A stretch of 64,000 nucleotides of DNA, from positions 1-64,000 of the forward strand of contig VCMS01000161.1 in NCBI GenBank assembly GCA_022539475.1, written 5' to 3'. The notes below the pieces were generated by a model. It was not told where the DNA came from, ran no database searches, and saw only the letters and a list, made by a program, of their open reading frames with translations. A program made the translations under genes and the position numbers. Position 1 is the first letter of the stretch, and the number at the start of each line of letters is the position of its first letter. The DNA comes from Gracilaria domingensis (taxonomy: Eukaryota; Rhodophyta; Florideophyceae; Gracilariales; Gracilariaceae). Shown in pieces: positions 3,721 through 43,559 of the stretch.

Positions 3721-3931
3721 AAAGTTGTGTTCAGAAAAGTTCGAAATCCTCCCCACACTGAAACATGCAGGAAAGGTACGTAAACGATCACGTGCACGGT
3801 GGAGTTGGTGGCGTATAAACACACTTTATACTCTCCCTGCAGGGTGCTCCAAGATTCTGCGCCGCACCATCACCACCGACCTCCCTCTGCAAGCAACTTC
3901 CCTCACTACTTTCATACCCTCTCACCCAGCG

Positions 3932-6900
3932 ATGCACAACTGTTGTTTCCCCCGCTGCTCATTCCATACACAGTCCCTCGCCTCTCTCGCCCAGCATCAG
4001 AAGCGATGCAGACACAGGACTGACCCAAACCCGTTTCTCACCCCAACACCTCATCGAGATCCCACTTCCCTCCCCGAACCAAGCGCCGCAGACTCAACAA
4101 CACCGAACCCCCTTCCTTCCCCCCCTCTAACCGCCCGTCCGATAACGTAGCACTCGCAGACGACGACCCTTATCTCCAGGAACAGCTTGCTCTCTCCCTA
4201 CGCTCATCCGACGCAGCACAGATACTCAGCCCGCATCACCAACTCGCCTCCCAGTCCCCTTCCACAGGCTCAGGTAACGCCTTCTCCCCCTCTCCACCCT
4301 CACAGAAAGACCACATCCATAACCTCGTCACCTACATATCCTCCATCGCCACAAAACTCGGAAAGCGTTCTGCTGACGAGCTCATCAACATTCTCAGGCA
4401 ATCCACCTTCCCTCTTCCCTCTTCCAGACCTCCATCACTTCCGCTGCCGAATGTCTGAAACTGCACTCCAAAATCTTCGAAGAAAACAGTCAGCTCCATT
4501 GGGTTCACCTCAACCATCATCCATGACAAAAACCATAACTTCTCCGCCACCCTCTACCTCAGGGACCCCGTTCAGGTTCTCCTACAACAACTTCGTCTCG
4601 CATCCCACAGCAACTCCTTCTTTCATCCAGTCAAACAAGCTTCAAGAACAGGAACTACCGCAATCGCACACCCTATGGCTTCGGAACTCGGCCGCCATGT
4701 CGTCCCGACTATCAAGAGGCATATCATGCATTCTCCGGACCCCGACGTCATCTGGCACGATCCCAGTATCACCGGCACAGACTCGTTCGTCGGCCTCGTT
4801 CAACTATATTCAGACAAGTCTTCCACCTCTTTGAAAAGTTCTTCTGTTACGTCGTATCCTCTTCACATCACCCTCCTCAATTTCAATGACCCTTCCGCAG
4901 AAAGTGCATCACGCAGAACTACACACTCGTCGGATACATACCCACATCCTTCACCTCCGACTCGTCCTCCACTGACACAGATTCCTTGGAAGTCGCTCCC
5001 TCAACCCCCAGCGTGACCCGCATTGTGCGCATGCAGCTCGTCCAGGAGTCCCTAGAAACCATCCTCAAACCTCTGTATCATATCGGTATGAAGGGTTTTC
5101 CCTTCCGCGACGCCAAAGGAGTCCTTCGTCAATGCCATCCAGTCATCTCCAACTACAGCGCTGACATCCCCGAAGCCAAGGACATTCTCGCAGTACTTCA
5201 TGGCACAAAGCCAAGCAACCCTGCCACCGGTGTCTCCTCCCTCGTTCAAAACTCAACCTCTACCAACCTACTCTCACAGAGCGAACCCTCTCACACACTT
5301 TGCAAACCAGAAAAAGACATGATGACCTACTTCTCGAGGCAGATTCTGCTCTCCTCTCCCATAGACCACGGGTTGCAAGGAACCTCAAAGAAGAAGCTGC
5401 AGAACTTCTCCACTCCACCTCTCTCTCTCCATACAAGTCCTTTCTGGAATCTTACCCTCTTCTCAACATCTCTTCACTGCTCACTCCTTATTCAATCTTC
5501 TCCTTCGAGCCCCTTCACAACTTTCACCTTGGCATCTCTAAACTCATCAAACTCGCCACAATCGAACGCCTGAAGTCCGATTCTCTTCACACTTCCGTGG
5601 GCTTCAATGGATCCTCCAGGTCGTTTCGGTCCATCAGAACATCTATTCTTACTCACGCCAACTCCATCCTAGCTGACATCGAACGCTCGTTTCCGGCTCC
5701 AGGGCTTCATATTGATTTCTCGACATCTGAAAAGGGTAAGTCTCTCAACGGCTTCTTCACCACTGACGGAATCAGAGGCATGCTAGAAGCAAAGGACTAT
5801 CGCGCCCTGGACATGGTCTTCCCCTTCATCGGTGCATTCTTCGACCGTTGCTGCGGTGAAGTATCTCCCGCCCCAATAACACCATTTTCACCTCTTACGT
5901 CGATCTCGTCAATAACGTTCTTCACTACCACACTGCCCCAGAATGGACTGATGATCGCTTACGCTCTTTGGAGACTCTCATCAAGAACTTCAAGACTCAA
6001 ACTGTCTCAGTTTTGGGTCCATACCAGGCCTCCAACTTTCGTACTCTCAAATTCCATCTCCTGGATCACATCATTCCAGACATCCGTCGATACGGAGGCC
6101 TCCATTTCGGTGATGCAGGTGTGTACGAGCACGCGCATCTCCTTTCAAGAACCACTACCGCCGTACCTCTCGCAGAAGATCAACTGCGCATAAGGAAACA
6201 GTAGACTCAATCCAAGAGTCGCAAGATTCTTACACTCCATCTCGGTAAGGAAACACTTCTCCATGTCTACCAACTCGGCCAGTCGTTTGTCGCAACGGTG
6301 TCCCTCCATGGTTCGTGATGGTAGTTCATTCTCCCTCTTCGACATCATCACGGCCGACAAGTATCTACGGTCCCATCCAAACGTCCCGTCATCTGCTCTC
6401 ACAGATTTGTTCTCCCAAAACTACATTGCAGTTCATCAACCAAATCTCTCGCGACGCCCTCTCTTCCTTCCGTACCCTAAGCTTAGAAACTCTTCAACCG
6501 TTGGACAACCCCCATGACATCAAAATCACCGTCGTTAACTCCGCTTACATTGTTTCTGGATTCTGCCCCTCGCTGGATGACTACGATCGTCACTTTCAAT
6601 GCATTAGACTGCGAAAGCCGGAGGTCTCTTTGTGTGAACGTATTTTGCAACCACTTCTTTCGGCCCTTCCAAGTCCCCAAAATTCTCTACCGTCCTGGTT
6701 AATGGAACTCCTCCTCCCGGTTGTGACTTCCCGACCGCATGGGTATGCAAAGTCTTGCCCTGGTTCGCTTTAGCAGATGTAACCAAAGCAATTCCGATTC
6801 TGAATTTGCCTTTGTTCGCTTCTTCGAGGTAACGGAGCCGTTGGATAACATTGACGAATCCTTGAACTGCATTTCCCTCCGCTGGGCCACGGATGACGAG

Positions 6901-7191
6901 GAAGATCACACATTGCAAACCTCCAATTCTCTAAAACGGTCAACAACTGCATCTGTATCCCCATGGTTCGGTCTCGTCCCATTCTCTTCGATCAAAGGCT
7001 CGGTACACATCCTCCGACAAAACTATCCCGCACGCCCTTTTTCCCTCCATTGCACTGGAAGTTCCACCGATTCTACATTAACAGATTCTATCGCAATCCC
7101 CGAGCTCGTGTACACTACCATCCAATCACCAAACTTTCGTAACGTAAACCATAATGCATTAGTGACGTTCTATCCAATTCTCCTCATGTAA
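3932..7191 (+). pseudogene. Plavaka-like DNA transposase, copy A (multiple frameshifts)
   Basis: Six or more overlapping fragments in different frames line up, in order, with the Plavaka class of cut-and-paste transposases. Near 3932 is an N-terminal C2H2/C2HC-like finger (Cys pair, HTQSLASLAQHQKRC). Next comes a proline/serine-rich linker. Then, about 4675-4990, is the DKSST...YPLHITLLNF segment. The HPVISNYSADIPEAK segment follows at 5130-5190. The FEPLHNFHLGISKLIKL segment (5505-5560) matches the H..hKG block of the family, and KFHLLDHIIPDIRRYGG (about 6050-6095) matches the KFH..HY...IRR.G block. A C-terminal FVRFFEV... region (6800-7150) completes it. Each block occurs again in copy B. 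No frame is long enough to give an active enzyme. The gene is convergent with, and overlaps the 3' end of, the accessory gene on -. Family assignment is by motif order seen by eye. Confidence 0.75.
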
Positions 7192-9706
7192 TCCTTCTTG
7201 CACAGACCTTTCCCTCATATCCCTCTCTGCAGTTATGTCGTAGAACATACGGTCTCCCCGACTGCAGCATCCAACATAGCAATCCAGTACAGCTCCGAGC
7301 TTCTCAGAGATCTCTCCCATAAACACATCTTCTCGGACAGCAAGGTACATTTTCCTTTTCGACGGAATCCAGTAAACCACAGTGCCCACCCGGTCATCAT
7401 TTCCATGCCGCGCATCTTCAGCATTCGATGGGCCATTTCTGAACTCTGTTGGATAACTCTGCTGCATGCGGACCCTCACGGTCTTCAGTATACTCTCAAG
7501 TGCCAGTGGTAGATATTTCCCGAACAAGTTGGAGAACAACACTTGTCTCTTACCACCTCTCCCTCGTTCAGACTCTGTCGCGCGAACAACGGACGCCATC
7601 CAGGCATCAAGACGTGCCAGATGCATAATTGTTCCATCCACTGGATCCCTCTCTTCGGTATTCCTCGAACTTGTTTGTAAAACGTCGTAGCCCATGAACT
7701 CACGCAGCACCTCCAAGCTCAGGCTGTTCCGAAAAAGCAAGTCACATGGTTCATCTTCGTTGCATGATATGGGTTAAAGCCCGAGAAACATATATCTTCT
7801 ACCTTCTGAGTTCTCCACGACGACAGAATCTCACATCCATTTGTATCTTCGGGTAGGAGTTTTTCACGTACCTCTCTGGTTTGTATTCATACTTGTTCTG
7901 CTCCATTTCATCATTTTTTATCGGGGTCCTTACAAGCATGTCGTAACCTAGTCCCATCAATAACTTCTCCTTCGCATGGCGTTTTCGAACACCTATTGCA
8001 TCACTTAAAGCCTGTTTCAACCTTCTGCGCAAACAAATGTCGTGCGTTAACTGTTTCACACAGTCATCTTCCATTTTCATTCTCGGATAGATTCCCAACG
8101 TGGCTTCATTACCTCCGTCTCCACAATTTGCATCAACAAATGGTCGCCTCCACCACGTACGGATGGCGTGTACGCCCTCATTCCATGGCAAGATCCATTG
8201 GGCACCGTGGCACTATCTCCTTCCCATCAACAACCAGCACACTTTCGTCTTTCTCAGGTCCAACTGTCTCACTTCGGTTGCCCCAGTTCCTTGCCGGTAT
8301 ACTCATCTCGAAGCATAGCTCTCTTGTCTCGTCTTTGCGTATTGAAGTATGGAGTCATAGACGGTCTTCGCAACACCAACAAACTCGTCGTTCACGTCAA
8401 TGTTGTACCGCTTCCTGCTCTTGTTACTGTCACGTTCGTTCCTTTTCCCTCCACGTCTGAGAGCCTCTCTCAAAGAGTGTATGAGAACCTCTTGTTCTCT
8501 GACCTTAACCTCCAGTTGCTCTATGTTCTTCTGAGCATGTCGTACGCTCATTTTCAGACTTTGCTTGTCCTCTATTGTACGATACAGATCTCCCTTCAGT
8601 TTCCCGATCTTTTCCAAAAGCTCGTATCGCGGAGTAAGGGATTCATCTTCATCTTCTTCCATTGCACCATGCAGGGAAAAGCTCCGTGACAAAGCACCAC
8701 GATCAACATCTTTATCGTTCCATACTCCTCTACGGGCGTTTGCTATGACAGGTTGCCGATCGTTCCCCACCCGTCTATTCTCATTTCCATGGTTCGTCCT
8801 TCTTCTGACCTGATTGAACCTGTTTCTCTGTGACTCACCTGTGACTGGTGTCGGTTGTATCTCGTTTTCGTCTTCGTCTTCCTTGTGTCTGGACCCAATA
8901 TGAGGGACGGAATCATGCCTGCCTTCGATGGGAGCCATATGCGTTGCATTTCCGGCGTCCACGTTGTCGTTCGCCTTCACGTTATCCTTGTCCTCGACGT
9001 CACTTGGGATATCTACTGCGTCCGTGGACTCCCGCTCCTTTCTTCCACTGCCTTTCTTGGCACGAGAGACACCCTCATTCATTTTCTCGTTCCTCTTCAC
9101 TTTTCTCGAATCATAACTGTTACGTTCTGTTCCGGCAGCGCTTCTGGGTATCTCCCTATCCCCAGGTTCGGCTCTAGGTTCGGCCCTCACGATGGCGCAA
9201 TCCTCGGTTTCCATCTCCGCATTGTCATCCGCAGTTCTCACCTTGTCGAAACAATCATCGATACGAGGACCTTCTGTTCCTCCACTGCCTCTTGTCCTCC
9301 TTACATTCTGACGTACAGCCGTTCTTCTCTTATTTCCTTTCATCGCTTTGATATCTACATTTCCATCATCACTGACCCTTGGCTCTTCCATTGCAGCCAT
9401 GTGGCGTGTAACAGGCCCACGCATTGCACTATCCTTGGCTTGAACGGTTTCACTTACTGTGCGTTCCGTAGTGCATGTGGAAGCTCCTGACCTCCTTCTC
9501 GGTTTTACTTCCGATACTGTAGATGAAGATTTTGGTTTGCGAAGTCCAGCACGAGGTGCTCGGCCTCGGCTACCTCTCCCATTAGTAGCACTACTTCGTG
9601 AGACGACCGCGCTCCTACGTTTGGCCACCCCAGTATCCCAGCGCTCCGGCGGTACCGATGCCTTTCGCGGTTTACCACCTGCATGCTCCGCACGTTGAGG
9701 AGCCAT
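7159..9706 (-). pseudogene. Accessory coiled-coil protein of the Plavaka-like element, copy A (broken)
   Basis: A 467-residue frame starts at 9706. It is basic and disordered (RPRKAS, many R/K/D/E), then forms a heptad-like coiled coil at about residues 360-418 (RYELLEKIGKLKGDLYRTIE and onward), and ends in a stop at 8303. Comparison with copy B shows the protein should continue, so a frameshift lies near 8300-8320. Downstream fragments are at about 8280-7799 (RKRHAKEKLLMGLGYDMLV) and 7740-7159 (LFRNSLSLEVLREFMGYDV, then HGNDDRVGTVVYWIPSK). I do not recognise the family. Its presence at the same place, tail-to-tail with the transposase, in both A and B says it is part of the element and perhaps a DNA- or transposase-binding partner (inference). 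Confidence 0.65.
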
Positions 9707-9739
9707 CCGAGATCCTTCGGCCTTCGTGCGCGGTAGTAT

Positions 9740-10165
9740 TACGGAACAGATATAGAAACGTGAACGATACTGAAGGTATATGATTGAGAGTGATATGTGA
9801 GGGTCACGTACTCGGTGTGCAGGACTGATATGTGAAGGGAGGGGAATTTAACCTCGTACTGCATATATGGAGAAAAGCATTCTGCAGCATTTGTGGCGGA
9901 TCGGCATTCAATTTTTGGACCTTTCCCGGGTCCATATTCCGGACTTGGTCCGATTTTCCCGGATGTTGCGCCCTGCATATACAAGTACGGCACTTTCAAC
10001 GATCTTTCATACCACTATATGCATCAATATGTTACACAGTACAGCTTGAGTGTACATATGAGTAGTATTTCTGCAATCATAGCAGAAGTGTTCAATACAA
10101 TTTACTTCAACAAAAAGCTTTTCTCACTACATTGAGCCCATACGAAGTCCAAGGACATTGTCTGA
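9740..10165. other. Gap between Plavaka-like copy A and the SET/methyltransferase gene
   Basis: No coding frame is supported. A short imperfect dyad is visible near 9918-9960 (GGACCTTTCCCGGGTCC with nearby GGTCCGATTTTCCCGGA). The downstream end of the methyltransferase-SET gene lies just to the right, so a poly(A) or terminator region may be included, but nothing decisive is seen. Confidence 0.4.
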
Positions 10166-10169
10166 GAAC

Positions 10170-11867
10170 TTAGGTTAACCTTTCCCAAGGATATGTGGGT
10201 CCATAGTCAACGTAAATTTCGTCGTGCTCCTTAATGTCCCTTGAGGCCGTGACTACGAGGAGTCTGTAGTTCTCCAAAAGCCCCAAAGTTGTAGCCTGAT
10301 ACTCTGTGGGCTGGCGAATGAATACATTTGGTTTGCGTGCCATGTTAGAATCCATTTCTTCCAATTCCTTGTCCTCATCGCCTTCACGATATGACGCGTC
10401 ATTGATATAGCCCGCTACACAGAAAGGAGCAGGAACTATCCAGGCATGACCAGCGTTGACTTCAGTATCATAATGCGGGAGAGTGTTGTACATTTGCCCC
10501 TTCAGCCTCACTTGCATGCAATACTTCCTGAACCGAGATGCAGTGGCCCCCAGCATTCCGTCTCCATACGTCAAATGTGTGGTATTGCGTCGGCTTAGAT
10601 CATGATACACCAAGGTCCCATAAAAGTATCCAATAACCTCCCCTTCGGAAAACGCCCTACTCGTAAATACTCCATTTCCACTTGCTGCATGTTTGATATT
10701 CGACTTCTTCACATAGAGCCATAGCGATGTCGCCTCGACAGAGAGTAAAGTGTGACTGTCCAACGTAGTCATCTTCCCTTGTAAGGCAAGTGGCCACTCA
10801 TGGAACGGTTTCTCTTTGTACGTAGTGATAAGACCAGGTTCATTCCAATAGGTGGATAGGTACGACATGATATGGAATGGGAAAGATTGGTACGATGGGA
10901 ATCCCTTGGGTGCATTCCATATAGTCGAAGTCTTTCGTTTCCGTTCAGGAAATTTGGCATCCACCATATAAGACGCTTGAACTACCTCATTCGTATCCGG
11001 TTCTTTCATCTTCAATTCATTGCGCCACACCTTTCTTGCGTAATGCACAATAGCATTGTGCTTGGCATGAGAGAAACACTGCTCATCTTGCTCACATCCA
11101 ATGAAACGCCGAGGCCCCTCAATATCCATACATGCCAGCGCGCACGAGAACGTCCCGGAGTAGAGATCAACCACAACATCCCCGGGATTCGAGAACCTCG
11201 CTATCAGCTCCATCAGTAGTTGCCTCGACTTTTGTTCTGGACGAGCGTTCGCGGTTCGAATTCTTCTACCACTCTTCACTCTCCATCGGAGACTCTCCCC
11301 AGGCGTAAGATTTGGAACCTGGTCAATGATAGAATAGTGCCCAGGATAGCGAGCTGAAACGTCGTTGAAGTTCTGATAGTTCACCATTACCTTCTGTTCC
11401 GCGTACGGGTTTCCATTCCTCACGCCATGCACGGCGTACTCCGTCGCCCCAAACAGGCGAGTAGTATTACGCGCAGGGTTCTTCAAGGGGTTCGAACGAG
11501 AACGAATGAAGTTCATAGGCGTCGAATCCACTAAGAATGATGCGGTTTTCTTTCCGCTTGCGTCCTCCGACTTGTGCTCTCGCAAAATCTCTTCCCAGTC
11601 TCCAAACTGGTCGATACTGCAGAACAAAACGAAATGTCCTCCTGGTCGAAGCATGGATGCCATGATGTCCGCAGTATTGTCCATATCATCGTCAGCAAAT
11701 TCGTCGTACTCGCTGTCGCGGATGCCATATGGTGGGTCTGTGAGCACGAACTGAACGTTGCCTTCCAAAGATGTATCCGATGGGAAGATAGTACCATGAG
11801 CCTCCACCAGTTCGTCATATCCGACACAATGCATTGAGAATTGCTTCTCCATGCTTCCTCGCACCAT
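10170..11867 (-). CDS. DNA amino-methyltransferase (DPPY) fused to a C-terminal SET domain
   Basis: The open frame is 565 residues. Residues 42-48 read LTDPPYG, the motif IV of N4-cytosine/N6-adenine methyltransferases. The AdoMet-binding motif I (VVVDLYSGTFSCALACM, about 231-247) comes after it, which is the beta-class order. A GPRRFIGCEQD strand follows. Residues 398-420 (GNGVFTSRAFSEGEV...FYG), 485-492 (AGYINDAS) and 550-556 (EIYVDYG) match the three core SET motifs, with ND in place of the usual NH. No cysteine-rich pre- or post-SET is seen. The annotated ATG is probably not the real start: copy 2 shows an in-frame N-terminal extension (TVKVEDS...IVILDSDNEEGD here), linking this gene to the frame ending at 11879. 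The likely role is methylating DNA and a protein (histone) substrate; both are inferred. Acidic DSEYDEFADDD follows the DPPY loop. Confidence 0.85.
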   Translation of the reverse strand: MVRGSMEKQFSMHCVGYDELVEAHGTIFPSDTSLEGNVQFVLTDPPYGIRDSEYDEFADDDMDNTADIMASMLRPGGHFVLFCSIDQFGDWEEILREHKSEDASGKKTASFLVDSTPMNFIRSRSNPLKNPARNTTRLFGATEYAVHGVRNGNPYAEQKVMVNYQNFNDVSARYPGHYSIIDQVPNLTPGESLRWRVKSGRRIRTANARPEQKSRQLLMELIARFSNPGDVVVDLYSGTFSCALACMDIEGPRRFIGCEQDEQCFSHAKHNAIVHYARKVWRNELKMKEPDTNEVVQASYMVDAKFPERKRKTSTIWNAPKGFPSYQSFPFHIMSYLSTYWNEPGLITTYKEKPFHEWPLALQGKMTTLDSHTLLSVEATSLWLYVKKSNIKHAASGNGVFTSRAFSEGEVIGYFYGTLVYHDLSRRNTTHLTYGDGMLGATASRFRKYCMQVRLKGQMYNTLPHYDTEVNAGHAWIVPAPFCVAGYINDASYREGDEDKELEEMDSNMARKPNVFIRQPTEYQATTLGLLENYRLLVVTASRDIKEHDEIYVDYGPTYPWERLT

Positions 11868-11878
11868 ATCTAGAGCAT

Positions 11879-13336
11879 TTAACGTGCGCGTGTCATCAAA
11901 GTCATGAGGGGGGAGAACCCCATCTGGAACGTTATCTTTCGCCCCAACAGAGGCACCAGGTGTATCACCTTCTTCATTGTCGCTATCGAGAATGACGATG
12001 ACATCGGAGTTAACTGAGCTTTTCCCTGCGGCGTTCCTCTTGGAGGAGCTCGGAATCTGTATCGAGTCCTCAACCTTAACCGTGACGGTATTACTTCCTC
12101 CATCCTCTCTGAAGGAGCGGCCCTAGGGATAAGTCGAGATGGTTGGAGGTTATGTACAGACATCGCTTGACGAATAGAAGACACGTACTCTTTGGAGAAT
12201 ACATTGAAACGGGGTGGTACTCGTGCGGGGCGGCCAGGTCTGAAGCTTTCCAACAAATTCCATCTTGACGTTGGGGACATTTTGTATAGGAAGCCATTCA
12301 ACACAATCTTGCTGACATCTGCCAAGAATTCCTTTGCCAACTCCCGTAAGTTGGCGTCGATAGTATCCGGAAGAGTATGAACCCAAGAAACGGTGTCGGT
12401 CACATCCAACGTGGGTTTCAGTTCTTCCCCCAACGTATGAAAAGCTGACTCCGGACTGTACCCAACAGAGCGGGATTCAATGACATGGAACCCAAGCGAC
12501 TTCTTTTCTACAAGCAGGTATGGCAGCAACATCTGCTCACCATCACCAAAGCCTAAGGTTGAGGCAAAGAAATCCCATCCCTTACAAATTGTTTGCACTG
12601 CATGTGCCATCCGTCTCCCGTGCGTCTCATTTGAAGCTATGTAGCCGTCGACGAACTGCACAGCTCTATGGGTTCCCTTCCCGGTCTTTCCTCTCTTCGC
12701 CGCTGGGAGATTTCTCTCCGAAGTTATATGCTTCACGAAAGAGAGATAGAGTAACTGCTGAAAACGAGTGGGAGGCCCAATCCTGAACGTAGTTCTCTTC
12801 GTCTGCTTACTGCCTGGACCATGTCGTTTGAAAAGGTCATTCCAGAAAGCCAGTTCTATGAACGAGCTACCGTTGTCGACATCCTTTTCAAGACTCCAGG
12901 TAAACAAATCTCTCACGCGCCGATCAGAATTCTCGTCGTCTAGATCAGTGATACGCGTATATTTGTAGACCCTGCTCAGAAAACGCACGTCCAGACAGAT
13001 CTTCGTGACTTCTTTTGCGGAGTAGTTTTGGAAAGGACCCTTGACCGCAGTGGTGATGAACTCTCGTGCACATGCCAGGTGTTCACGGTTTGATACAGCG
13101 TATTCCACAATTTCCGTGTACCCAACTTCACGCGGATTACCAGTACCGCTTCTTGAAGCGGCATACGCATCTCGCAACTCAATGAACAACCCCCAACATT
13201 TCAAGAAACGCGTTGCCATGCTGGCTGAATCGAACGACGCGCTAGAGGATGCGCTAGAGGATACCGTGCCGTGGTTCTCATCGGCCAGCACACTCTGCTT
13301 AACAGTCCGAGGAGCGTCATTTCCGGTGGACGCCAT
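11879..13336 (-). CDS. N-terminal domain of the methyltransferase-SET protein (frameshifted from it)
   Basis: I chose the ATG at 13336 (MASTGNDAPR) because copy 2 aligns from about this point; an in-frame ATG 39 codons upstream adds a hydrophobic stretch not shared with copy 2. A Ser-rich start (about residues 20-40) is followed by a helical, conserved domain (LFIELRDAYAASR, DVRFLSRVYKYTRI, PGSKQTKRTTFRI, TRFQQLLYLSFVKHI, EFLADVSKIVLNGFLYKM). I recognise no family. Its tail after about 12110 is out of frame: in the neighbouring frame the sequence reads SNTVTVKVEDS, matching copy 2, where the domain and methyltransferase share one frame apart from a TGA. So the ancestral product was one protein of about 1,050 residues (10170-13336), split here by a single-base shift near 12100-12115. 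A sequencing error is possible. Confidence 0.75.
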   Translation of the reverse strand: MASTGNDAPRTVKQSVLADENHGTVSSSASSSASFDSASMATRFLKCWGLFIELRDAYAASRSGTGNPREVGYTEIVEYAVSNREHLACAREFITTAVKGPFQNYSAKEVTKICLDVRFLSRVYKYTRITDLDDENSDRRVRDLFTWSLEKDVDNGSSFIELAFWNDLFKRHGPGSKQTKRTTFRIGPPTRFQQLLYLSFVKHITSERNLPAAKRGKTGKGTHRAVQFVDGYIASNETHGRRMAHAVQTICKGWDFFASTLGFGDGEQMLLPYLLVEKKSLGFHVIESRSVGYSPESAFHTLGEELKPTLDVTDTVSWVHTLPDTIDANLRELAKEFLADVSKIVLNGFLYKMSPTSRWNLLESFRPGRPARVPPRFNVFSKEYVSSIRQAMSVHNLQPSRLIPRAAPSERMEEVIPSRLRLRTRYRFRAPPRGTPQGKAQLTPMSSSFSIATMKKVIHLVPLLGRKITFQMGFSPLMTLMTRAR

Positions 13337-13646
13337 GTAAGAACTGAGAATCAGAAAGGACGCGAAGTAAACGAGTATTGTGAAACGGTAGAAGTTTCGG
13401 AGATGTTTAAATGGGTGGGAAGCGACGGAAACGTCGGGAAGCGTCGGAAACAATGGTGGAGAGCGCGGTTGCGACGGATTACCGAGAACTGAGCGGGTAA
13501 TGAAATAGAGAGACGAGAGTGGGATCTAAACACATCAAACCGGTGGGGCACGTCAGTATGTGCAGTGCATTATATGCCTAGTATGTAAAACCAATGTAGA
13601 AAACACTGGGTTCGTACATCTTTGAACATCGCCCGAGCGCGGTGTG

Positions 13647-13722
13647 GGAACCGCGGTTCGCCGAGTTCATAGCCGAGATCATAGCTATGATCTCGGCTAT
13701 GAACTCGGCGAACCGCGGTTCC
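13647..13722. repeat. Perfect 76-bp palindrome (left arm)
   Basis: The two 38-base halves are exact reverse complements around an AGCT centre at 13683-13686. The core is GTTCATAGCCGAGATCAT and its complement, and the outer part is GAACCGCGGTTC, itself a palindrome. It lies about 310 bp upstream of the ATG at 13336. It could form a cruciform or bind a dimeric protein. The same core occurs at 14144-14220 and, diverged, at about 60749-60836. Confidence 0.95.
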
Positions 13723-13901
13723 GGCACGGCGCATCTGACGAAACGCCACGTGTATACCGCCGAAAGGACCCCCCCTGAGGACCCCCTGGAGACCACTTCT
13801 ACTACACAATGCGCACCAAAGCACCTGTTCTCACCCACACCACCACTACCTGGTGGTGTTGCTGGCGTTTATATGGGCAGTGAATAAGTGACGCCCCGTC
13901 G

Positions 13902-14040
13902 ATGGCCGCCGCCCTCCGTGCGCTGCTCCGCTCCCACCGCATCGTCTCTCCTCCTCAAGCCCTTCCCCTCCGTCTTCCACGCTTGCTACACAATGTGTCC
14001 GAAGTGTCATCCGCGTCTCCATCGCTCTCCCGTTTATTCG
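13902..14040 (+). pseudogene. Possible mitochondrial presequence fragment of a host gene
   Basis: The frame opens with MAAALRALLRSHRIVSPP and continues with Leu/Arg/Ser-rich, acid-poor sequence (LPLRLPRLLHNVS), typical of a mitochondrial targeting peptide. After about 45 residues the frame runs into the right arm of the inverted repeat and becomes palindrome-derived sequence, so no mature protein follows. Upstream sequence is C/T-rich. The fragment sits between two oppositely oriented repeat arms, as if a host 5' end was captured or interrupted. The similarity is compositional only; no mature domain is left to identify it. Confidence 0.45.
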
Positions 14041-14143
14041 ACGTCACTGCCCACATAAACGCCAGCAAGGGGTCCTCCAGGGGGTCATCAGGGGGGGTCC
14101 TTTCGGCGGTATACACGTGGCGTTTCGTCAGATGCGCCGTGCC

Positions 14144-14220
14144 GGAACCGCGGTTCGCCGAGTTCATAGCCGAGATCATAGCTATGATCTCGGCTATGAA
14201 CTCGGCCGAACCGCGGTTCC
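14144..14220. repeat. Near-perfect 77-bp palindrome (right arm)
   Basis: This is the same palindrome as at 13647-13722, with one extra C in its right half (GGCCGAACC instead of GGCGAACC). The centre is AGCT at 14180-14183. It lies about 230-590 bp upstream of the possible starts of the ParB-like gene, mirroring the arrangement on the left. Confidence 0.95.
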
Positions 14221-14736
14221 CACACGGCGCTCGGGCGATGTTCAAAGATGATGAAAGGCGGGGACAGTGGTCAACCAGGACGGAATCAGACATTGATCCA
14301 ACCATTTATAACCATCAGAAACTGTACCCACACTGCTCACGTGGGCATTGCAGCCGTTTTGAACGTGAATGGTTGCGTCCATTGTGCTCACGCGAGAAAG
14401 GGCGGAGATTCGAACACGAGCGGTTGCAACTTCACGGGAGCAAACGTAGGATTTGAAGAACACCAGGACTCGTGTATATCACACACACTGGCACCATATA
14501 ATGGATATGAGGGGACTGGGAAAGGGTCAAATGAGACGCTCTCGAAAGGTGAGAAAGCCTCGACGAACCATGGCACCACAACTTCGGAGCGGGACCAGAA
14601 CTGCTGAACCGAACGCAGCGACGGGGAACGCATCCACAGCTATGAAGTCGAAGCCCGCACCAGGCGAAGAAGTGACCTTGTTGTTGGGAGGGCAGGAGGG
14701 AACAAAGCAGCGATTGGGAAAGCTGTTCTCGTTGAA

Positions 14737-15825
14737 GTGGACGCTGGTGGAGGGAAGACAACGTTCAGAAGGGAAATGCATGGACATGCTCTGCAGGGAA
14801 AACCAGGGGAAGATGTAGTTGGTATATGGCTAGCGAAGATATCTCATGAGCTTGACACTCCCTATCCCTATCTCTTTAAGTGTACCGATGAAGATTCTGT
14901 TCCGAAGACATTGAAGGACATGAACAGGCCCGGTTTCTACGCCTGGGACCTGAACTTAATGTCTAAGGTGGGTGACGTCGTAAGCGCTGATGAAGGAGAC
15001 AAGGGTGCTCCGAGTTCCAAATTCGTCGCCCCTGAGGAGCCATCGAATACTGCTGGGAAACGGGTGCGAGTCGTAGAACCTAAAACTCCATCCAGTGCCC
15101 GAAAGCGAATGGAGATGAAAGTGGCTCATGTGAAAACCCCGTCGAATGCTAAAAAACCCCAAGGCGGGAAACAAGCGCCAGTACCAAAGCTGAAAACACC
15201 ATCGAACGTTCACGGTGGTGGAAAGCAGATGCAAGAATTTAAGATGACCACGACCCCAGAGAGTGCTGTATCGGCATTTCGTAAACAAACTGCTACGATT
15301 GTGCAGTCTGGAGCATCGAGGAACAGCACTGCGGAAGCTATTACTCAGGCTGGAAATCGCAGTGGAGTGACAATGGAAGTGATTGACGTGGATGAAGACG
15401 AAGACGAAGACGTGGTTCTAGTGAAGGAAAGCCTTGGAAGCAACGTCAATGAACTCTTTGATGAAGGTGATGTGATACCTCCTGATGATGTCGATACGAG
15501 TTTAGCGAGTTTGGTATTTGACTTAGATCATTACGAGTATGTGTCTGTTCAAGTCGATATTGAGCTCATTCAAGTTCCGGAAATGACTGTGAGAGGGTTG
15601 TTCCGGAATCATGTCGAGGCTCTGAAAGAAGAGATTGGACGCAAAAGCTTCTTACAGGCACTTGGGACCATGAGCGTTGCTGTTCTGTCTCAGGATGTGT
15701 CCGAGAAGGACATAGTGCAGAACAATCGCTTGAAAGTGAAATGTGTGCTGATTGATGGAGCTCATCGTTATGTAGCACTCAAAGAGCTCTGTGAATCTAT
15801 GCCCAACATTAGGAATCTATGTTGA
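14737..15825 (+). CDS. ParB/sulfiredoxin-fold domain protein, N-terminal part of a longer broken gene
   Basis: The first ATG of this frame is 14737, but the true N terminus is unclear: an overlapping frame (14453-14818) has a basic start (MRRSRKVRKPRRT) and may be the original 5' end joined by a frameshift. Residues 1-75 look folded (DVVGIWLAKISHEL, PGFYAWDL). Residues 80-225 are a low-complexity linker with KTPS repeats (PKTPSS, VKTPSN, LKTPSN), then an acidic DEDEDED run. Residues about 270-352 match the ParB-N fold: VDIELIQVPEMTVRGLF, a helix, and the hallmark box DGAHRYVALKEL at 340-351. The stop at 15823-15825 falls straight after the domain. The same frame reopens at once, and the neighbouring frame reads YVEVFLFRCGREK, so compensating indels are likely. 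Predicted role: nucleic-acid or nucleotide binding/modification. Confidence 0.75.
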   Translation: MDAGGGKTTFRREMHGHALQGKPGEDVVGIWLAKISHELDTPYPYLFKCTDEDSVPKTLKDMNRPGFYAWDLNLMSKVGDVVSADEGDKGAPSSKFVAPEEPSNTAGKRVRVVEPKTPSSARKRMEMKVAHVKTPSNAKKPQGGKQAPVPKLKTPSNVHGGGKQMQEFKMTTTPESAVSAFRKQTATIVQSGASRNSTAEAITQAGNRSGVTMEVIDVDEDEDEDVVLVKESLGSNVNELFDEGDVIPPDDVDTSLASLVFDLDHYEYVSVQVDIELIQVPEMTVRGLFRNHVEALKEEIGRKSFLQALGTMSVAVLSQDVSEKDIVQNNRLKVKCVLIDGAHRYVALKELCESMPNIRNLC

Positions 15826-15867
15826 GGTCTTTCTGTTTCGCTGTGGAAGAGAAAAGATGGACAGAAG

Positions 15868-17022
15868 ATGACCACGAGGGAAATCTTGAGCCTTGGCAAT
15901 GTGCTAAACGATGGATTGAAGCAAGCTCGTCTTATGGGTTTTGCTGACAAAGTGCATTCTATTGTGTCATTTATAAGGGTCCTGGTTGAGGAAGAGAAGA
16001 AGGACTTGAGCAAGATGACGAGGACCTCTGTCGCAGGTGCACTAAGTGTTTGCGGTATCATTGGCCAGTACAATATCAAGCATTTGGCAAGATTTGCAGA
16101 GATGGGGTTGAAGGTGGCGAGAAGTCCTGGATTGCTGGAACATTTGGAGCGGATTTGTGGGGAATACCATGAGATTGGAATTTCTTGTATATCAAGTGAT
16201 GAATTCTTTACCATGGATGAGCATACAACCCACTTCACGCTCGACGCTCTGGTTGCATACTTTTCCAGGAGGCGAGTGTCGAAACTGACGGGTCGTTTTG
16301 AAGACGTACGCAAATACTTCTTTATCTGCTGCAGGAGGCTTCAATCTTTGCCAGAGGAGCTTTCGAAGAAGAAGAAAGTTACATTGGAAGAAGCGTATGC
16401 CATGAAGGTGGAAGTGACAAAGTTTGAAATGCGCACCGTTCGTGAGTACCTTGCAACACAGGCAGCACGAATTGATGTACCTTCGAATAAGAAGCTCTGG
16501 GAAGGAAGGATTTCGAGAAGAATCTGGATTGCTCGTGATAAGCTGGCAAAGAGTTTAGGGGTGGATATGTTGAAACCTGCCACTGGTACTACGCCGACTG
16601 AAACACAGTCTGAGACCAAAGCGGTAGACGAGTCTACAACGCAGAGAATGGCCACACGTTCGGCAAGTAGGAAGGCCAAAGCGCCAGTGCGCAAGGGCTC
16701 TAAGGACTCTGATGTAGAAAGTGAAGAGAATATGCCATCGAAGACAAGAAGCATGAGGAGTTCAAGACGAAGCCGTCGACGAAGGAATGCAATGAGAGAC
16801 GTGAACCCTAATCAACGGAAGAAGTCAAGGACGGAGGGTATTCAATCTGTTCAAAATGAAGTTATCAGTCATCTGCGGAGTCTTGGTGCGAAGGGGGTGA
16901 GAAACTTGTTGAAAAGTCATCAGATATCCATTGGCAGCGACACAGACTCAGATGGAGTACCAATTGTGGTCTCACAGGCAGAGGACACTGACCCGTTCGA
17001 TGACACAGTACCGCAGGTGTAG
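15868..17022 (+). CDS. Middle part of the ParB-like/dioxygenase gene: helical region and basic linker
   Basis: It lies in the same frame as the preceding and following segments. It opens with MTTREILSLGNVLNDGLKQA, which resembles the helical region that follows ParB boxes. An alpha-helical domain without a known match follows (residues about 20-225). Residues about 225-325 are a basic, NLS-like linker (MATRSASRKAKAPVRKGSK, SMRSSRRSRRRRNAMRD), suited to nuclear DNA binding. The frame ends in a TAG at 17020-17022 inside Thr/Asp/Val-rich sequence. After the stop it continues in frame (APGLKKAEEVAYEGDDSW) into the dioxygenase segment, so a single nonsense mutation probably separates them. Confidence 0.65.
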   Translation: MTTREILSLGNVLNDGLKQARLMGFADKVHSIVSFIRVLVEEEKKDLSKMTRTSVAGALSVCGIIGQYNIKHLARFAEMGLKVARSPGLLEHLERICGEYHEIGISCISSDEFFTMDEHTTHFTLDALVAYFSRRRVSKLTGRFEDVRKYFFICCRRLQSLPEELSKKKKVTLEEAYAMKVEVTKFEMRTVREYLATQAARIDVPSNKKLWEGRISRRIWIARDKLAKSLGVDMLKPATGTTPTETQSETKAVDESTTQRMATRSASRKAKAPVRKGSKDSDVESEENMPSKTRSMRSSRRSRRRRNAMRDVNPNQRKKSRTEGIQSVQNEVISHLRSLGAKGVRNLLKSHQISIGSDTDSDGVPIVVSQAEDTDPFDDTVPQV

Positions 17023-17082
17023 GCGCCAGGTCTGAAGAAGGCTGAAGAAGTAGCATATGAAGGTGACGATTCGTGGCTAAAG

Positions 17083-18348
17083 TTGGTGAAGACCTTACCA
17101 AGCAAGTGGCCGACTGGAGTGGAGAATGTCATTAAATCTGTGTACCCGTGGATGGATGCGATACATCTCCAGAAGCAACACCGAGGCCACTTGTTGGAGC
17201 CCAAGGACTTTGAAAGTGTGCACCATGCAGTCTTTTGGCATGCAGCGTATCATGGCCATAAACTCCTGAACGCGGCAATGGGAGGCATGGAGGTCGACGA
17301 GAAGACGTTATGGGGGGATGCACTGAAGAACGACTCTCTTGCGTATGTCTATTTTGTGAAGAAGAACGTCGAGCTTCGAGAGAGAGGTTTCTGTATTCTG
17401 GACGGCTTTGCATCGGATGGAGAGTTGGTGAAGCTGACAGAGAGTTTGAACAAGCTCATTGACGGGGATGTTAGTGTGGAATTACTGGACTTCTTCCGAA
17501 GGGACTTCGAGAGGGCTGCAGGCCTTAGGATACCAGAGAACCGAATCACATGGATACCGATCATCAACGCAGATGGTGGGAGGTACATGACTACGAGAAG
17601 AGGCATAGTGGATGACATGGAGGCAGCCGTAGAAAGACATGTGCTTGTGAAGAAGAGAGCTTTACTGGATGCCCGACTGGGACAGATATGTGCTTTAATG
17701 GGTTTACAAGATAATAGGGTGGAAAAGGAGAGGATGTATGCGCCGAAGACGGGGGGGAGGGTGTTATGCAGTGCAGTTGGATGCAAGCGGCAGCAGTTAC
17801 ATACGGATTTCCCGACCTTGGCGAATGAGGATAAGCTGGAAGAAAAGAAGAACCCGGGGTACTTTATGATGGTGTCCGGAAGTGTGTCGTTTCCAATTTG
17901 GGTATGTGAAGGGTCTCATACACACTACGCAGTTACTCCCAAGGCATTTGAAGGTTTGGCACGGGGGATGTTTGTGAGGAAGTTTTTCGTTCCGCCTAAG
18001 TCTATATTTATTGGAAGAGGTGATGTGTTCCATGCAGGCGCTTCAAATGAGGATGGAAGATTCCCCGAGATTCCCTTGTTTCGTTACCACATGGAGATGG
18101 TACCTGAGATATACAACCTCCCAGATGCGGTACACCTTAACCCACACTTTCGACCTCAGTTCAAGGAGGATGAAGACCTGGTTAGTATGAAGGAGAAGAG
18201 GAAGAATCCAGAACCGTCGAATTTGGAGGAGGAGAATGATGAAATGATAGTAGAGGAAGGGGAAGAACAGTATGAAGAAGATGACGAAGATGAGAATTAT
18301 GAAGTGGAGGAGATTGAAAACGATCTTGAGGATGGCGAAGAAGACTGA
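17083..18348 (+). CDS. 2-oxoglutarate/Fe(II)-dependent dioxygenase domain, C-terminal part of the ParB-like gene
   Basis: The open frame is 421 residues. The double-stranded beta-helix signature is visible: an HxD metal pair at H240-T-D242 (KRQQLHTDF), a distal His at 317 (GRGDVFHAG) and an Arg at 334 (LFRYH) in the place of the 2-oxoglutarate-binding residue. An N-terminal helical part (1-150) and a FPIWVCEGSHTHYAV strand pair surround it. The last 60 residues are extremely acidic (EEGEEQYEEDDEDE). The first ATG is internal: sequence upstream, past one TAG, is in frame. The TET/JBP base oxidases, AlkB and many phytanoyl-CoA-type enzymes share these residues; I cannot place it in one of them. 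The link to a ParB-like domain and the adjacent DNA-methyltransferase gene suggest a nucleic-acid substrate (inference). Confidence 0.8.
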   Translation: MVKTLPSKWPTGVENVIKSVYPWMDAIHLQKQHRGHLLEPKDFESVHHAVFWHAAYHGHKLLNAAMGGMEVDEKTLWGDALKNDSLAYVYFVKKNVELRERGFCILDGFASDGELVKLTESLNKLIDGDVSVELLDFFRRDFERAAGLRIPENRITWIPIINADGGRYMTTRRGIVDDMEAAVERHVLVKKRALLDARLGQICALMGLQDNRVEKERMYAPKTGGRVLCSAVGCKRQQLHTDFPTLANEDKLEEKKNPGYFMMVSGSVSFPIWVCEGSHTHYAVTPKAFEGLARGMFVRKFFVPPKSIFIGRGDVFHAGASNEDGRFPEIPLFRYHMEMVPEIYNLPDAVHLNPHFRPQFKEDEDLVSMKEKRKNPEPSNLEEENDEMIVEEGEEQYEEDDEDENYEVEEIENDLEDGEED

Positions 18349-18679
18349 GTGAATATGTGATGAAACTTTGTAGTAATCTATGTGTCGAATATAGTTTCGA
18401 AGTAAATGATCTTGTGAATCGAGAGAAAGTTTAAGAATTGTGGAAGCGACGACTCTACCCAAGATTGAAGGGTAGGATAGGATACCATACCAAACACTTC
18501 AATCCTGGAGAGCGTCATGAATATGTGGGAACTATGTTTGTAGAGAAGAGATTCTGTTTAGTTGAAACATGTATCAGTTATGTACTTATGTTCGTATACT
18601 ACTTGTCTCGCACTTGGTGAATACGTCAGCCAGAAGGCAGTAGATGTTGTGTCGTGGGTCTAGGGTGCTCACCAATGGC

Positions 18680-19828
18680 TCACAAGTATCGCTTTGCGTT
18701 GATTCTTGGTGCGTGTTTGACGACTCCGGAGCATACAAGTAGTACAATGAACAAGGTATTTGTGAGGAGGGACGGGATACCTCTGTACGAACCAAAGGAT
18801 TCGGGGTCCAAAGACTCGGAGAGTGTGTGTGCGAAGAAAACTGGGACCACTCTGTTCAGAAAAAGTCTGATAGAAAGCAGGAAATCCTGAAGGAACAAAG
18901 CTTTTCGGAACGAGTTTAGAATACAACGGCAGTACGGATTTAGCCCTCTTCTCCGGTATACCACCCGATTGGAGAGCGGAACTATGTTGTTGAACGTATG
19001 TTTTGTAGAGAAATAGATCCCAAATGTGTTGATGAGAATGTTGAAGAAGCCGAAGAAGAAACCGCCGGGGAAGAAGGAAATACATGCAGTTTTGAGAGAA
19101 TCCATGACATCGATTGGAGGAGGACGGAGCTGATAGGTGACGAAGATAGAGAGGTTGAGGACGATAAGCCCACCGATGCTCATGCCGAGGTATTTATTCC
19201 TCAGTGCCGAAACGGTGCTGGATGTGTGCGACGGAGTCATTGGACCATATGCGAGTCTACCATACCTTGTGTCGTGAAGAGAGAATGCCAATTCAAACAG
19301 AATAATGTGAAACATAGTTTCGAGCATGCTGTACAGGATGGTGAATCCCAGTTGTGTTCGGCAGGAGGAGCGATCGTAGAGAAGAGCGTGTGTTATGAGA
19401 GGCTTTATAATCCCATAGAGAGCTCCTATGGCTACTGAAACGAAGAGGGAGAATGCCAAGAGAGAGGATAGCGAGAGCATGTTCAGGGGATTATGTGAAT
19501 AAGACCGAGCCTCTGACATGTAGTTGGGTAGCTCTGAAAGATTCCTAATTGTATGGAAGAAGGGAGGATGTTCAAGGATTCGGTCATGAATTGAAACTTC
19601 GTGAAGTATGTCATAAACATCACTGAGTTCATCCAGCAGTTCGGGGGATAAAAGGGTCTGGACTCCTCGAACCGTGGCTTCCCCGGTGTCAACGTTGTAC
19701 TTCAGTTGAAGGCAGTCGTCAAAGGTGATGTATGTCCTATGGGGAAATGCGTTGAGATGGATAGGTATGAGAGCAGTTTGGTTGCGAAGCTGTACGTGCG
19801 ATACCTTGTGGGTGTTTTGGAAGGCCAT
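18680..19828 (-). CDS. Polytopic membrane protein, unknown function
   Basis: The frame is intact and 382 residues long. About 110 soluble N-terminal residues (YITFDDCLQLKYNVDTGEAT, LSPELLDELSDVYDILHEV) precede about five hydrophobic segments at residues 115-141, 158-184, 213-233, 245-272 and 352-371. A basic stretch (VVYRRRG) lies between the fourth and fifth. There is no cleavable signal peptide. I do not recognise the family. It is convergent with the dioxygenase gene (ends about 330 bp apart) and divergent from the acidic coiled-coil gene. The intact frame among broken neighbours hints that it is either recent or under selection. A cytochrome, transporter or viral envelope identity is not supported by any motif I can see. 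Confidence 0.6.
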   Translation of the reverse strand: MAFQNTHKVSHVQLRNQTALIPIHLNAFPHRTYITFDDCLQLKYNVDTGEATVRGVQTLLSPELLDELSDVYDILHEVSIHDRILEHPPFFHTIRNLSELPNYMSEARSYSHNPLNMLSLSSLLAFSLFVSVAIGALYGIIKPLITHALLYDRSSCRTQLGFTILYSMLETMFHIILFELAFSLHDTRYGRLAYGPMTPSHTSSTVSALRNKYLGMSIGGLIVLNLSIFVTYQLRPPPIDVMDSLKTACISFFPGGFFFGFFNILINTFGIYFSTKHTFNNIVPLSNRVVYRRRGLNPYCRCILNSFRKALFLQDFLLSIRLFLNRVVPVFFAHTLSESLDPESFGSYRGIPSLLTNTLFIVLLVCSGVVKHAPRINAKRYL

Positions 19829-20468
19829 TGTGAGCTCTGCTGCCTGTGAGTAGGTAGGAAAGAGGAGAAGAAATGAAGAAAGAAGGGGCGAGGAGAAGAT
19901 ATATTTATTGAGAACGAAACGAGCAGATACTACCTATAAAGAGGTGTATCGAAGGAGCTATATCTATGTTTTGTTTCCTTTAAGGCTTGTAAATTTGAAG
20001 TGAAGAAGGTGTTCATAAATGAGTGGCGAACTTAGCTTCTGTGATGGAAAAGCTATGAAGAGAAGGAGTACATGAAGAGTAAAATGTAGGGCGATGAAGA
20101 GGACGGAAGAATCATGATATGATGGTAGTGGTAGGATTTCATTTCATATACTACTGGCATGAACCATGTATGAAACGGGACGCCCTTCTCGCAACGGTTG
20201 GGAGAACATGGAGAATGAGAAGCATAGAGAGTGTTCAAAAGTGAAGAATTGTGCTAGTAAATATGAAAATAATTGCGATGCAGAGGTTGGACGGATATGA
20301 GCGGGTGCGGCGGTACTACAGTGTCATGGGACGAAAGCGTCTACCCTTGGTACACCGTGATCGGTTTGCGAAGGAACGATCAGCGAGTTCTGTTCTTTTC
20401 GGCTTCCCTGATTTCTCTTCTTTCGATATCCCTTTTGCTCTTCTACCAGATCTTCTACCAACGCGACC

Positions 20469-21287
20469 ATGAGCGATGACGATTCGCGTTCGAACATTAG
20501 GTGGCCGTGAGAGTCGGACGAAGGGGTACGGTCGCACAAGAAGTTAAAGAGTGTGTTCGAGGAGGAGGAAGAAAAGGACGAGCTGGACTGGTGGGCCACT
20601 GCAGTGCTGGGATGTGCCGGAGCGATGGGGACGCGCATGGGAGAGAACGTGGGTCGACTGACGAAGAAGGTGACAGGGTTCGTGGTAAGGGAACTGAGGG
20701 GGGTGAAAGAGGAGCAGAAGAAGATGATGAAACGCATTGAGAATCTGGAGGGGAGCTCGAAGGAGGTGAATGGGAGGAAGAAGGGCGGGGTAGGGGGTGT
20801 GGAGGGAACGCCGGTAACTCCGGCGCCGAAGACGAAGATCGTGAACGGCGTTGGGGTAGGAGTGTGCATCGGAAGCGAGGACGAGGATGCGAGAGACTTT
20901 GTACCGGCGACGGATAGTTTTGGGGCGGATGAGGTGATGGAGGGAGAATTGGTGAGGAAGAGAGGTCTGAAGAGGAAGGTTGGCGAGAAGAGGCCGATCC
21001 AACCGAGGAGTGTGGGGGTAGAAGAGGATGAAATTCAGCCGAAGGTGGAGAACAAGAAAGGAAAAGGGGATAGTAAGAAGAGGACACGGGTTGGGTTCAG
21101 GACTGTTCCGAAGCCGGTGTGGAGAGGGAGCAGTGTTGTTGGATACGAGGAGAAGTGGAGCTGGGAGGATGTTGTGGAGGATGAGGAGGAAACGGTTGAG
21201 AATGATGATGGGAAAGAATTTCGTACGCTATCATTCGCGGATGTGGATGTGGAGGTAGAGGAAGGAGATGAAGGTGCTTTACTTTGA
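20469..21287 (+). CDS. Acidic/basic disordered protein with a short coiled coil
   Basis: The clear open frame runs from ATG 20553 (244 residues). The same frame extends upstream to ATG 20469 (MSDDDSRSNIRWP), interrupted only by a TGA at 20508-20510, and the intervening SDEGVRSHKKLKSVFEEE is protein-like, so the original start was probably 20469. Features: WWATAVLGCAGAMGTRMG, a short helix/coiled coil (VKEEQKKMMKRIENLEG), a bipartite-like basic stretch (RKRGLKRKVGEKRP), a second one (KKGKGDSKKRTR) and a very acidic C terminus. The composition suggests a nuclear protein. No family was recognised. The opposite-strand frames here are mirror images of this biased sequence. Confidence 0.5.
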
Positions 21288-21289
21288 TT

Positions 21290-21960
21290 GAGGTGATACA
21301 GTAGTTGCCGGGTTGATGGAGGTAGAAAAGCGTTGGGGGATTGGATGTGCGCAACTACCATTTCATGAATGTTGTACTAGCCAGAGTTAGTTTACATTCA
21401 TTATTTGTGTTTATTTGCAATCGACAAGTATGCAAGTGCCGTTGGTAGCTTCCAGATCGAGCTACCACCTAATCCGTCTGAGTATACTAGGTACAAAAAC
21501 TTTCATGTCATGGAGGTGAACTAGCAATTATGTCCGCTTTCACTCATTCTACAAATTCTGTAGTATTGCTTGAATAAATGAAAGTATGGTATCCAAAAAA
21601 TTTTGTTTTTGGCTTGCACATAGCCGTACATTCAATTCTTTGCACATTTTTTAACGATTCAATCCACAAAATAGCATTCTAGCCTCTTGACATAGCGTTC
21701 CGGAAACACAGACGTAGGCCTTACCGTCGTCTTGTTGGGTTGGATGCTGCGGGATGGGTTCGAAGTTGTCGTCCTCATAGTCATACCAAAGGTATCCAGG
21801 AGTTGCCACCCAGTCAACACGGGGGATGTAGTCCAGAAGCCTCGCGACGTCCTCTGGCTAATATTCGGTACCGCGCACGATGTTTTGGATCCCCAACCCC
21901 CGCAGATATACTATCATCATCTTTGGAAGAGGAACAAAGCGACCACGGGGACTGGGGCAG
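21290..21960. other. No gene recognised
   Basis: AT-rich to about 21660, then mixed sequence. A - strand continuation of the 21.96-22.85 kb relic may extend here in decayed form (LPKMMIVYLRGLGIQNIV on - near 21900), but it cannot be confirmed by eye. Confidence 0.3.
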
Positions 21961-43525: not shown

Positions 43526-43559
43526 TTGTTTGGAATCTTTTCGTTTCCCGGTCTTCCGC

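Follow-up and report, generated by a model that had tools for sequence, protein, structure and literature searches.

A divergent methyltransferase-SET and ParB-like/oxygenase-like gene pair carried by a 20-kb Plavaka-type transposon of the red alga Gracilaria domingensis

The 64,000-nucleotide stretch of Gracilaria domingensis DNA considered here (contig VCMS01000161.1, positions 1 to 64,000; hereafter the window) contains two broken multidomain genes that face away from each other across a palindromic tract. It thereby raises the question of why a gene for a putative DNA amino-methyltransferase (MTase) joined to a SET domain should be paired with a gene encoding ParB-like and 2-oxoglutarate (2OG)/Fe(II) dioxygenase-like regions. 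An initial annotation, made from the letters of the sequence, had presented the pair and its palindrome as free-standing: the divergent arrangement around the palindrome was confirmed, but the pair proved to be the cargo of a 20.1-kb Plavaka-type DNA transposon. The combination of an MTase-SET gene, a ParB/2OG-like gene and a palindrome within a Plavaka element was not found described in the literature, in a search limited to open-licence papers. The terms ParB-like and 2OG-like are used throughout because both assignments were made from motifs and no profile confirms them.

Extent and identity of the transposon

Comparison of the window with the rest of the genome (77.9 Mb in 680 contigs, the window being contig 161, C161) established that homology to ten other copies extended from left of position 3931 to a sharp stop at 21714, with long pieces mostly 95-99% alike among the matches listed. 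The whole element (1607..21714, 20,108 bp) is bounded by a left terminal inverted repeat on the forward strand (1607..1620, CGTCGTGTTTCCGG, a variant of CGTCTGTGTTTCCGG) and a right terminal inverted repeat on the reverse strand (21700..21714, CGTCTGTGTTTCCGG, 15 of 15 positions), with a TA target-site duplication immediately outside each (1605..1606 and 21715..21716). Both ends were inspected in twelve copies including that of the window, the left end of C469 lying outside the fetched stretch, and the inverted CGTCTGTGTTTCCGG was present at both element ends, in degenerate form on the left in the window copy. Matching 2-bp duplications were recorded in eight of the 11 copies with both ends seen (C161 TA, C25 AA, C96 TA, C202 AT, C266 TA, C277 TT, C42 TA and C120 CG), those of C12, C233 and C293 being unmatched. 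One right flank was common to C12 and C233, and another to C293 and C442, and this sharing of flanks suggests later recombination or duplication at the three unmatched copies. The strongest proof that 1607-21714 is an insertion is provided by empty sites: the window flanks, when joined with one TA, gave uninterrupted matches of 84-89% at seven other places in the genome.

Two further observations concern the left end of the window copy. Its left flank, up to the same point, also occurs at C533, C252 and C42, as if one site of a repeat family had received the element more than once, or had been duplicated together with it. Furthermore, similarity of the left end itself (1607-2100) to the 39 others scored is only 79-80%, while the interior is 99% like the C12 copy, a mismatch that may reflect a subfamily exchange or a recombinant end.

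The transposase gene (3932..7142, forward strand) was located in the window by tblastn with the C12 copy, and contains several frame changes here. The 1069-residue stop-free stretch of C12 matched PF18759 with an expectation (E) value of 6.3e-24 (85.2 bits, the cut-off being 26.3), while the same profile reached only E 0.17 on one piece of the broken window transposase. Residues D292, D409, C429-C432, H707-H711 and E731 of the C12 protein, assigned by motif order and not by alignment, place C(2)C and H(3)H between the second D and the last E, as described for Plavaka transposases, with C(2)C and H(3-4)H, in the available text of a recent survey (PMC12730594). The element termini, CGTCTG..CAGACG with a TGT..ACA pair 4 bp inside, match neither of the published Plavaka types (TGT..ACA for A and CATCA..TGATG for B); Plavaka membership rests on the transposase, and since the termini depart from the published types they would constitute a new terminal type. 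That the anatomy is that of a 20-kb Plavaka transposon with cargo is held with very high confidence.

Genome-wide searches returned at least 75 matches to the left (MTase-SET) protein, at least 110 to the middle of the right gene, at least 103 to the oxygenase part of the latter, and at least 150 alignment rows, corresponding to at least 40 main places, for the palindrome. A more distant MTase query located 33 further loci outside the 75 listed, at 37-39% identity to that query, which apparently constitute a third subfamily; in 13 of them the matched part was free of stops. Open frames are present in several sister copies, in contrast to the broken copy of the window, in which all parts carry lesions as initially annotated: one frame change in the left gene, and one frame change plus two in-frame stops in the right.

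The two genes and the palindrome between them

The left gene (MTase-SET, 10170..13336, reverse strand, with a start codon at 13336) comprises an N-terminal region, an amino-methyltransferase and a SET domain. In the window, the reverse-strand frame 10170-12122 contains both the N6_N4_Mtase domain (11061..11756, reverse strand; PF01555, E 1.7e-15), with DPPY before the S-adenosylmethionine (AdoMet) motif, and the SET domain (10200..10679, reverse strand; PF00856, E 1.1e-6). After a frame change near 12.1 kb, the gene continues in frame 11879-13525, the N-terminal part, for which there was no family match; in the C12 copy the whole is a single frame of 1118 residues. These results bear out the unknown domain, beta-class amino-methyltransferase and SET domain that had been proposed for this strand. 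Both profiles were matched at E values of 0.01 or below by 11 of 11 aligned members, and the invariant columns of their alignment (A1) include D597, P598, P599, E764, Q765, K766, D787, G791 and T792. DPP was invariant in all 11 rows, and the order of DPPY before the AdoMet motif is that of the beta class. The nearest solved methyltransferases were DpnA, CcrM and MboIIA, which act on adenine, and the nearest solved SET domains those of KMT2C, KMT5A and EZH2; given DPPY and the adenine-type relatives, adenine N6 would be the likelier base target. No chromodomain was recorded in a Pfam scan of the C12 protein. Ten homologues of the MTase-SET protein were found beyond this genome, at 29-42% identity, and 11 loci in bacterial and archaeal genomes matched the methyltransferase part at 23-42%; a motif search of 331 frames from these prokaryotic loci returned no DGxHR-type box.

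The right gene (14501..18348, forward strand) lies in the window as three open pieces (14608-15825, 15826-17022 and 17023-18348) but is one frame of 1326 residues in the C140 copy. Its ParB-like region (15532..16323, forward strand), defined by motif from alignments A3 and A6 and from tblastn, consists of a DGxHR box and a conserved follow-on, and its 2OG/Fe(II)-like domain (17134..18165, forward strand), likewise defined by motif from alignment A5, has the order HxD...H...R. The relevant window positions are 15751-15768 for IDGAHR, 17800-17808 for HTD, 18031-18039 for HAG and 18082-18084 for R. D80, G81, H83 and R84 of the box were invariant in all six aligned rows, as were H223, D225 and H300 of the oxygenase-like part; the arginine that follows HxD...H was present in five of the six, and in P0014 lies three residues further from YH. 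By eye, the N-terminal region of P0013 seems repeated, which suggests a small duplicated domain before the ParB-like part.

Profile searches with the right gene were less productive, and of the ParB-like box and 2OG/Fe(II) dioxygenase initially annotated it is the motifs that stand, without profile or sequence support. The only NCBIfam match, DGQHR, had an E value of 0.15 and fell on the box itself. ParB_N (PF02195) gave no matches anywhere in the genome at E values up to 10, with matches in 11 of 14 control genomes, and the PhyH profile found only two other loci in the genome. Neither TET/JBP nor any other oxygenase family was among the Pfam matches of the right-gene protein, and two phage matches in the ParB/2OG search, with E values of 4 and 8, were taken as chance. 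A first homologue search with sparse words returned none; a dense search with the oxygenase part of the C20 protein returned five, including a G. domingensis protein (FGB62_6g410, 97% identical across 15% of the query region).

The pairing was counted after merging fragments, with a partner accepted within 12 kb. Among the matches listed, 40 of 66 MTase loci had a divergent ParB/2OG partner, the other relations being two convergent and two tandem. Among the palindromes listed, 20 of 40 lay between both genes, five were near the left gene only, 13 near the right only and two near neither, and 19 of the 40 divergent pairs had a listed palindrome between them. The arrangement was kept in both of the more diverged loci examined: in C20 the N-terminal end of the MTase gene begins next to the right gene and runs away from it, and in C168 the MTase (60827-63364, reverse strand) and the oxygenase part (67487-68752, forward strand) are again divergent. 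The initial annotation had held that the pairing would be coincidental if, in other genomes, intact homologues were never found together or never neighboured the palindrome; applied to the other copies in this genome, the same criterion did not refute the pairing. Physical linkage beyond this genome may be inferred from paired homologues that report equal longest contigs, namely P0001 (MTase-SET) with P0012 (right gene), each with four contigs and a longest of 20,528, and P0005 (MTase-SET) with P0013 (right gene), each with a longest of 19,696. Linkage to the transposase was assessed with 43 transposase loci (50 rows less seven fragment rows) and 66 of the 75 MTase rows (nine fragment rows being dropped): among the matches listed, an MTase-SET gene lay within 9 kb at 22 of the 43, in one and the same orientation at all 22, and at a distance of 3037-3040 bp at nine of them.

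The tract between the two genes (13617..14250) is a palindrome of 634 bp, in accord with the shared inverted repeat of about 630 bp first noted. Its arms (13617-13798 and 14067-14250) are 97% alike and each is itself near-palindromic, the self-palindromic parts (13637-13732 and 14134-14230) containing two CCGCGG each; the fold gave a z of -34.5 against 20 shuffles, none of which was as good. The centre (13884-14070) reads like a promoter plus the start of a transit peptide (MAAALRALLRSHRI...). Derivation of the palindrome from a host gene was rejected: 39 of the 40 scored places at which the centre was found are listed palindromes, and the fortieth is the end of contig C171.

The 15 CCGCGG of the window comprise four in this palindrome, with no others inside the element, two at the short palindrome of a diverged second copy (60753 and 60765), four in a third palindromic tract (48670-48889) and five elsewhere. 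In each of 11 copies, over 16.6-20 kb, four CCGCGG lie at the palindrome and no more than two outside it. A similar two-armed palindromic layout is present at the same place in C20, where the tract between the genes holds five of six CCGCGG, and in C168, where two lie on the arms. The palindromes of subfamilies 1 and 2 share sequence detectable by blastn, while those of subfamily 1, C20 and C168 share none at E 1e-3. CCGCGG was chosen after looking, and since a self-complementary motif doubles automatically in an inverted repeat, these counts overstate independence; the independent fact is that three sequence-unrelated palindromes at one position all contain CCGCGG. This suggests that the palindrome is a putative binding site, possibly of the ParB-like part.

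Candidate roles of the cargo

The favoured answer to the question posed by this locus, though one to which we assign slightly less than an even chance, is that the divergent MTase-SET and ParB/2OG-like module is self-marking or anti-silencing cargo of the Plavaka element. The transposase, with its D, D and E residues and a catalysis that is inferred, would move the element between its short inverted termini with duplication of 2 bp. The ParB-like part would bind the palindrome arms, at sites perhaps located around CCGCGG, and would deliver the oxygenase to the DNA or chromatin of the element; the MTase-SET would write marks there, with the net effect that element genes stay expressed despite host silencing. 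The anti-silencing role as such is put forward a little more tentatively again. That the two genes constitute a writer/eraser pair is plausible from their domains, the eraser half being at the level of motif. A more elaborate version, in which the ParB-like protein recognises CCGCGG palindromes and loads the oxygenase, and a dual writer marks both DNA and histones of the same copies, is doubtful; if true, it would give a mobile element of eukaryotes both a parS-like address and a writer for DNA and histones fused in cis.

Comparison of copies has some bearing on whether the cargo is of service. Two MTase-SET stretches compared between subfamilies 1 and 2 had ratios of nonsynonymous to synonymous differences per site (pN/pS) of 0.23 and 0.46, and two transposase stretches compared likewise had 0.21 and 0.40, with pS near saturation at 0.61-0.79. 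Pooled values within subfamily 1, from non-independent pairs, were 0.67 for the MTase-SET (seven copies, two pairs being identical) and 0.47 for the oxygenase part (five copies). Given the similar ratios between subfamilies, the cargo appears to have been kept about as strictly as the transposase, which suggests purifying selection on it.

A number of observations nevertheless weigh against the self-marking or anti-silencing reading, beginning with these ratios, which carry no significance test. The ParB-like and 2OG-like parts had no significant match in Pfam, NCBIfam, PHROG or PDB sequences, and the arginine presumed to bind 2OG is lost in C140, where it is Leu; hhalign comparison with two host PhyH genes and P1 ParB gave no signal, from templates too thin for the result to count against the assignments. 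With respect to the left gene, precomputed and stricter Pfam lists name SET in only six of ten homologues. SET lysine methyltransferases usually have a catalytic NH motif; at this place ND is invariant in A1, and because of this and of a degenerate AdoMet motif, GTFS (GSGT in the DpnA sequence), activity of the MTase-SET is not assured. No divergent partner was listed for 26 of the 66 MTase loci and no MTase for 21 of the 43 transposase loci, absences of which contig ends and unlisted matches may explain some, not necessarily all. The tract at 48521-48913, 82-92% like the C168 palindrome and containing four CCGCGG, adjoins a Plavaka relic without the pair. Finally, the copies differ by CpG-type transitions at a per-site frequency 2.3 times that of other transitions, a mild sign that CpG decay has not spared the element.

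The same two genes could serve the contrary purpose of self-restraint, whereby the MTase-SET would silence the element by DNA and histone marks and so limit its copy number, with the right gene relieving that silencing at a chosen time. An amino-methyl mark is coupled to SET-based silencing in the bdelloid N4CMT/SETDB1 case, as set out in the available text (PMC8885841), and the MTase-SET fusion would couple both marks in one chain. However, the high copy number (at least 75 matches plus the 33 further diverged loci) runs counter to restraint, which on its own also leaves the paired oxygenase-like gene unexplained, and we regard this alternative as unlikely. A lower probability still attaches to a role in the timing of transposition, with adenine methylation of the termini distinguishing newly replicated DNA. 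Dam methylation times IS10 transposition in bacteria, and the methyltransferase has adenine-type relatives, but the SET domain, the oxygenase-like part and the central palindrome would then be unexplained, and no target motif is known. It is equally improbable that these are passengers, captured from host or bacteria and riding along without service to the element: the loci lacking a listed partner or MTase, and within-subfamily pN/pS values not far below 1, would accord with such a history, whereas the values between subfamilies are well below 1 and similar to those of the transposase, and gene order and palindrome are kept in diverged loci.

The palindrome could itself be a nested foldback insertion or a source of hairpin RNA, and not a protein-binding site. 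It is indeed a near-perfect foldback of 634 bp, the two palindromes with neither gene listed nearby would be accommodated, as would the related tract beside the Plavaka relic, and this is the most credible of the rivals. It remains an improbable one, for the same place, the two-armed layout and CCGCGG are kept in palindromes without detectable shared sequence, and of the 40 scored places with the palindrome centre 39 belong to these loci, the fortieth being a contig end. Methyltransferases, SET domains and oxygenases all occur in giant viruses, in accord with descent of the module from a large DNA virus that had integrated into the algal genome. This origin is very improbable given the Plavaka structure, with terminal inverted repeats and target-site duplication, and given that three pattern-based scans (P0001, A1 and A5) of 2.9 million viral contigs found no relative.

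As self-marking or anti-silencing cargo, the module may be compared with several known systems. Bacterial ParB-parS partition deploys a DGxxR-type box and palindromic DNA, and the present element resembles it in having such a box beside a palindrome; it differs in being eukaryotic, in lacking a significant ParB profile match, and in that no ParA gene was recognised among the six element genes covered by the Pfam scan, from which gene 7 was left out. The nearest idea to the present element, so far as the accessible part of the source extends, is that of fungal Plavaka transposons with a TET/JBP dioxygenase, for which an anti-silencing role has been proposed (Kojima 2025, PMC12730594). The likeness, judged from the same portion of text, extends to a C(2)C plus H(3-4)H transposase, 2-bp duplications and oxygenase-type cargo (PMC12730594), but no TET/JBP domain is recognised in the present oxygenase-like part, which is joined to a ParB-like part and is paired with an MTase-SET gene and a palindrome within CGTCTG..CAGACG termini in a red algal host. 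Giant Plavaka repeats are described in Amoebidium, where, in the excerpted account, many genes encode tyrosine recombinases (PMC11244446); unlike these, no tyrosine recombinase was recognised by Pfam among the six genes scanned here. HarbingerS and MuDR transposons of Phytophthora carry a SET gene (PMC12730594, in the part available) and are alike in that a SET histone methyltransferase gene is transposon-borne, but their transposases differ, and the excerpted text mentions no fusion of SET with a DNA methyltransferase for them. In bdelloid rotifers the amino-methyl mark of N4CMT is coupled to silencing by SETDB1, a bacterial-type amino-methyltransferase in a eukaryote thus being linked to histone methylation as it may be here. 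N4CMT, however, is described in the accessible text as having SPPY and a chromodomain, with SETDB1 a separate protein acting in trans (PMC8885841), whereas the protein encoded by the present transposon combines DPPY/F with SET in a single chain.

Transposons with chromatin-editing enzymes are natural experiments in escape from host silencing. In the portions of the literature available, the enzymes of published cases are TET/JBP or SET; the present red algal element joins a DNA amino-methyltransferase to SET in a single chain, and its MTase-SET gene is recurrently and divergently paired with an oxygenase-like gene and a palindrome. Since several sister copies have open frames, self-marking by N6-methyladenine or N4-methylcytosine is directly askable with existing long-read methods.

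Other element genes and neighbouring features

Four further genes complete the element. Gene 2 (7159..8226, reverse strand) is a 356-residue frame in C12, has no family match and is broken here; gene 3 (8181..9847, reverse strand), a 556-residue frame in C12, matched DUF7603 only below the cut-off. Gene 6 (18629..19933, reverse strand) is a 435-residue frame in C140 with four hydrophobic peaks and no family match, and gene 7 (20511..21287, forward strand) is a 258-residue frame.

The rest of the window contains a second, diverged copy of the element, in two parts (37329-43583 and 57255-60834) split by about 13.6 kb of other sequence, which includes the transposase, genes 2 and 3, the MTase-SET gene and the short palindrome (60763-60834); a ParB-like match for this copy lies beyond the window, at contig position 68300. 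Between its halves there is a HEAT-repeat frame (51455-53660, reverse strand), possibly a host gene, and also the third Plavaka relic (46035-48153, 30-41% identity) beside the palindromic tract of C168 type at 48521-48913, no MTase-SET or right gene being found next to this relic. A forward-strand frame at 62790-63998, which has no Pfam match, contains a protease-like IVDGGAKGT stretch and probably belongs to a retroelement. Between the two element copies are inverted repeat pairs (25335-25784 with 33738-34166, and 30751-30991 with 34742-34986) that are 77-82% alike, and possibly represent other transposons.

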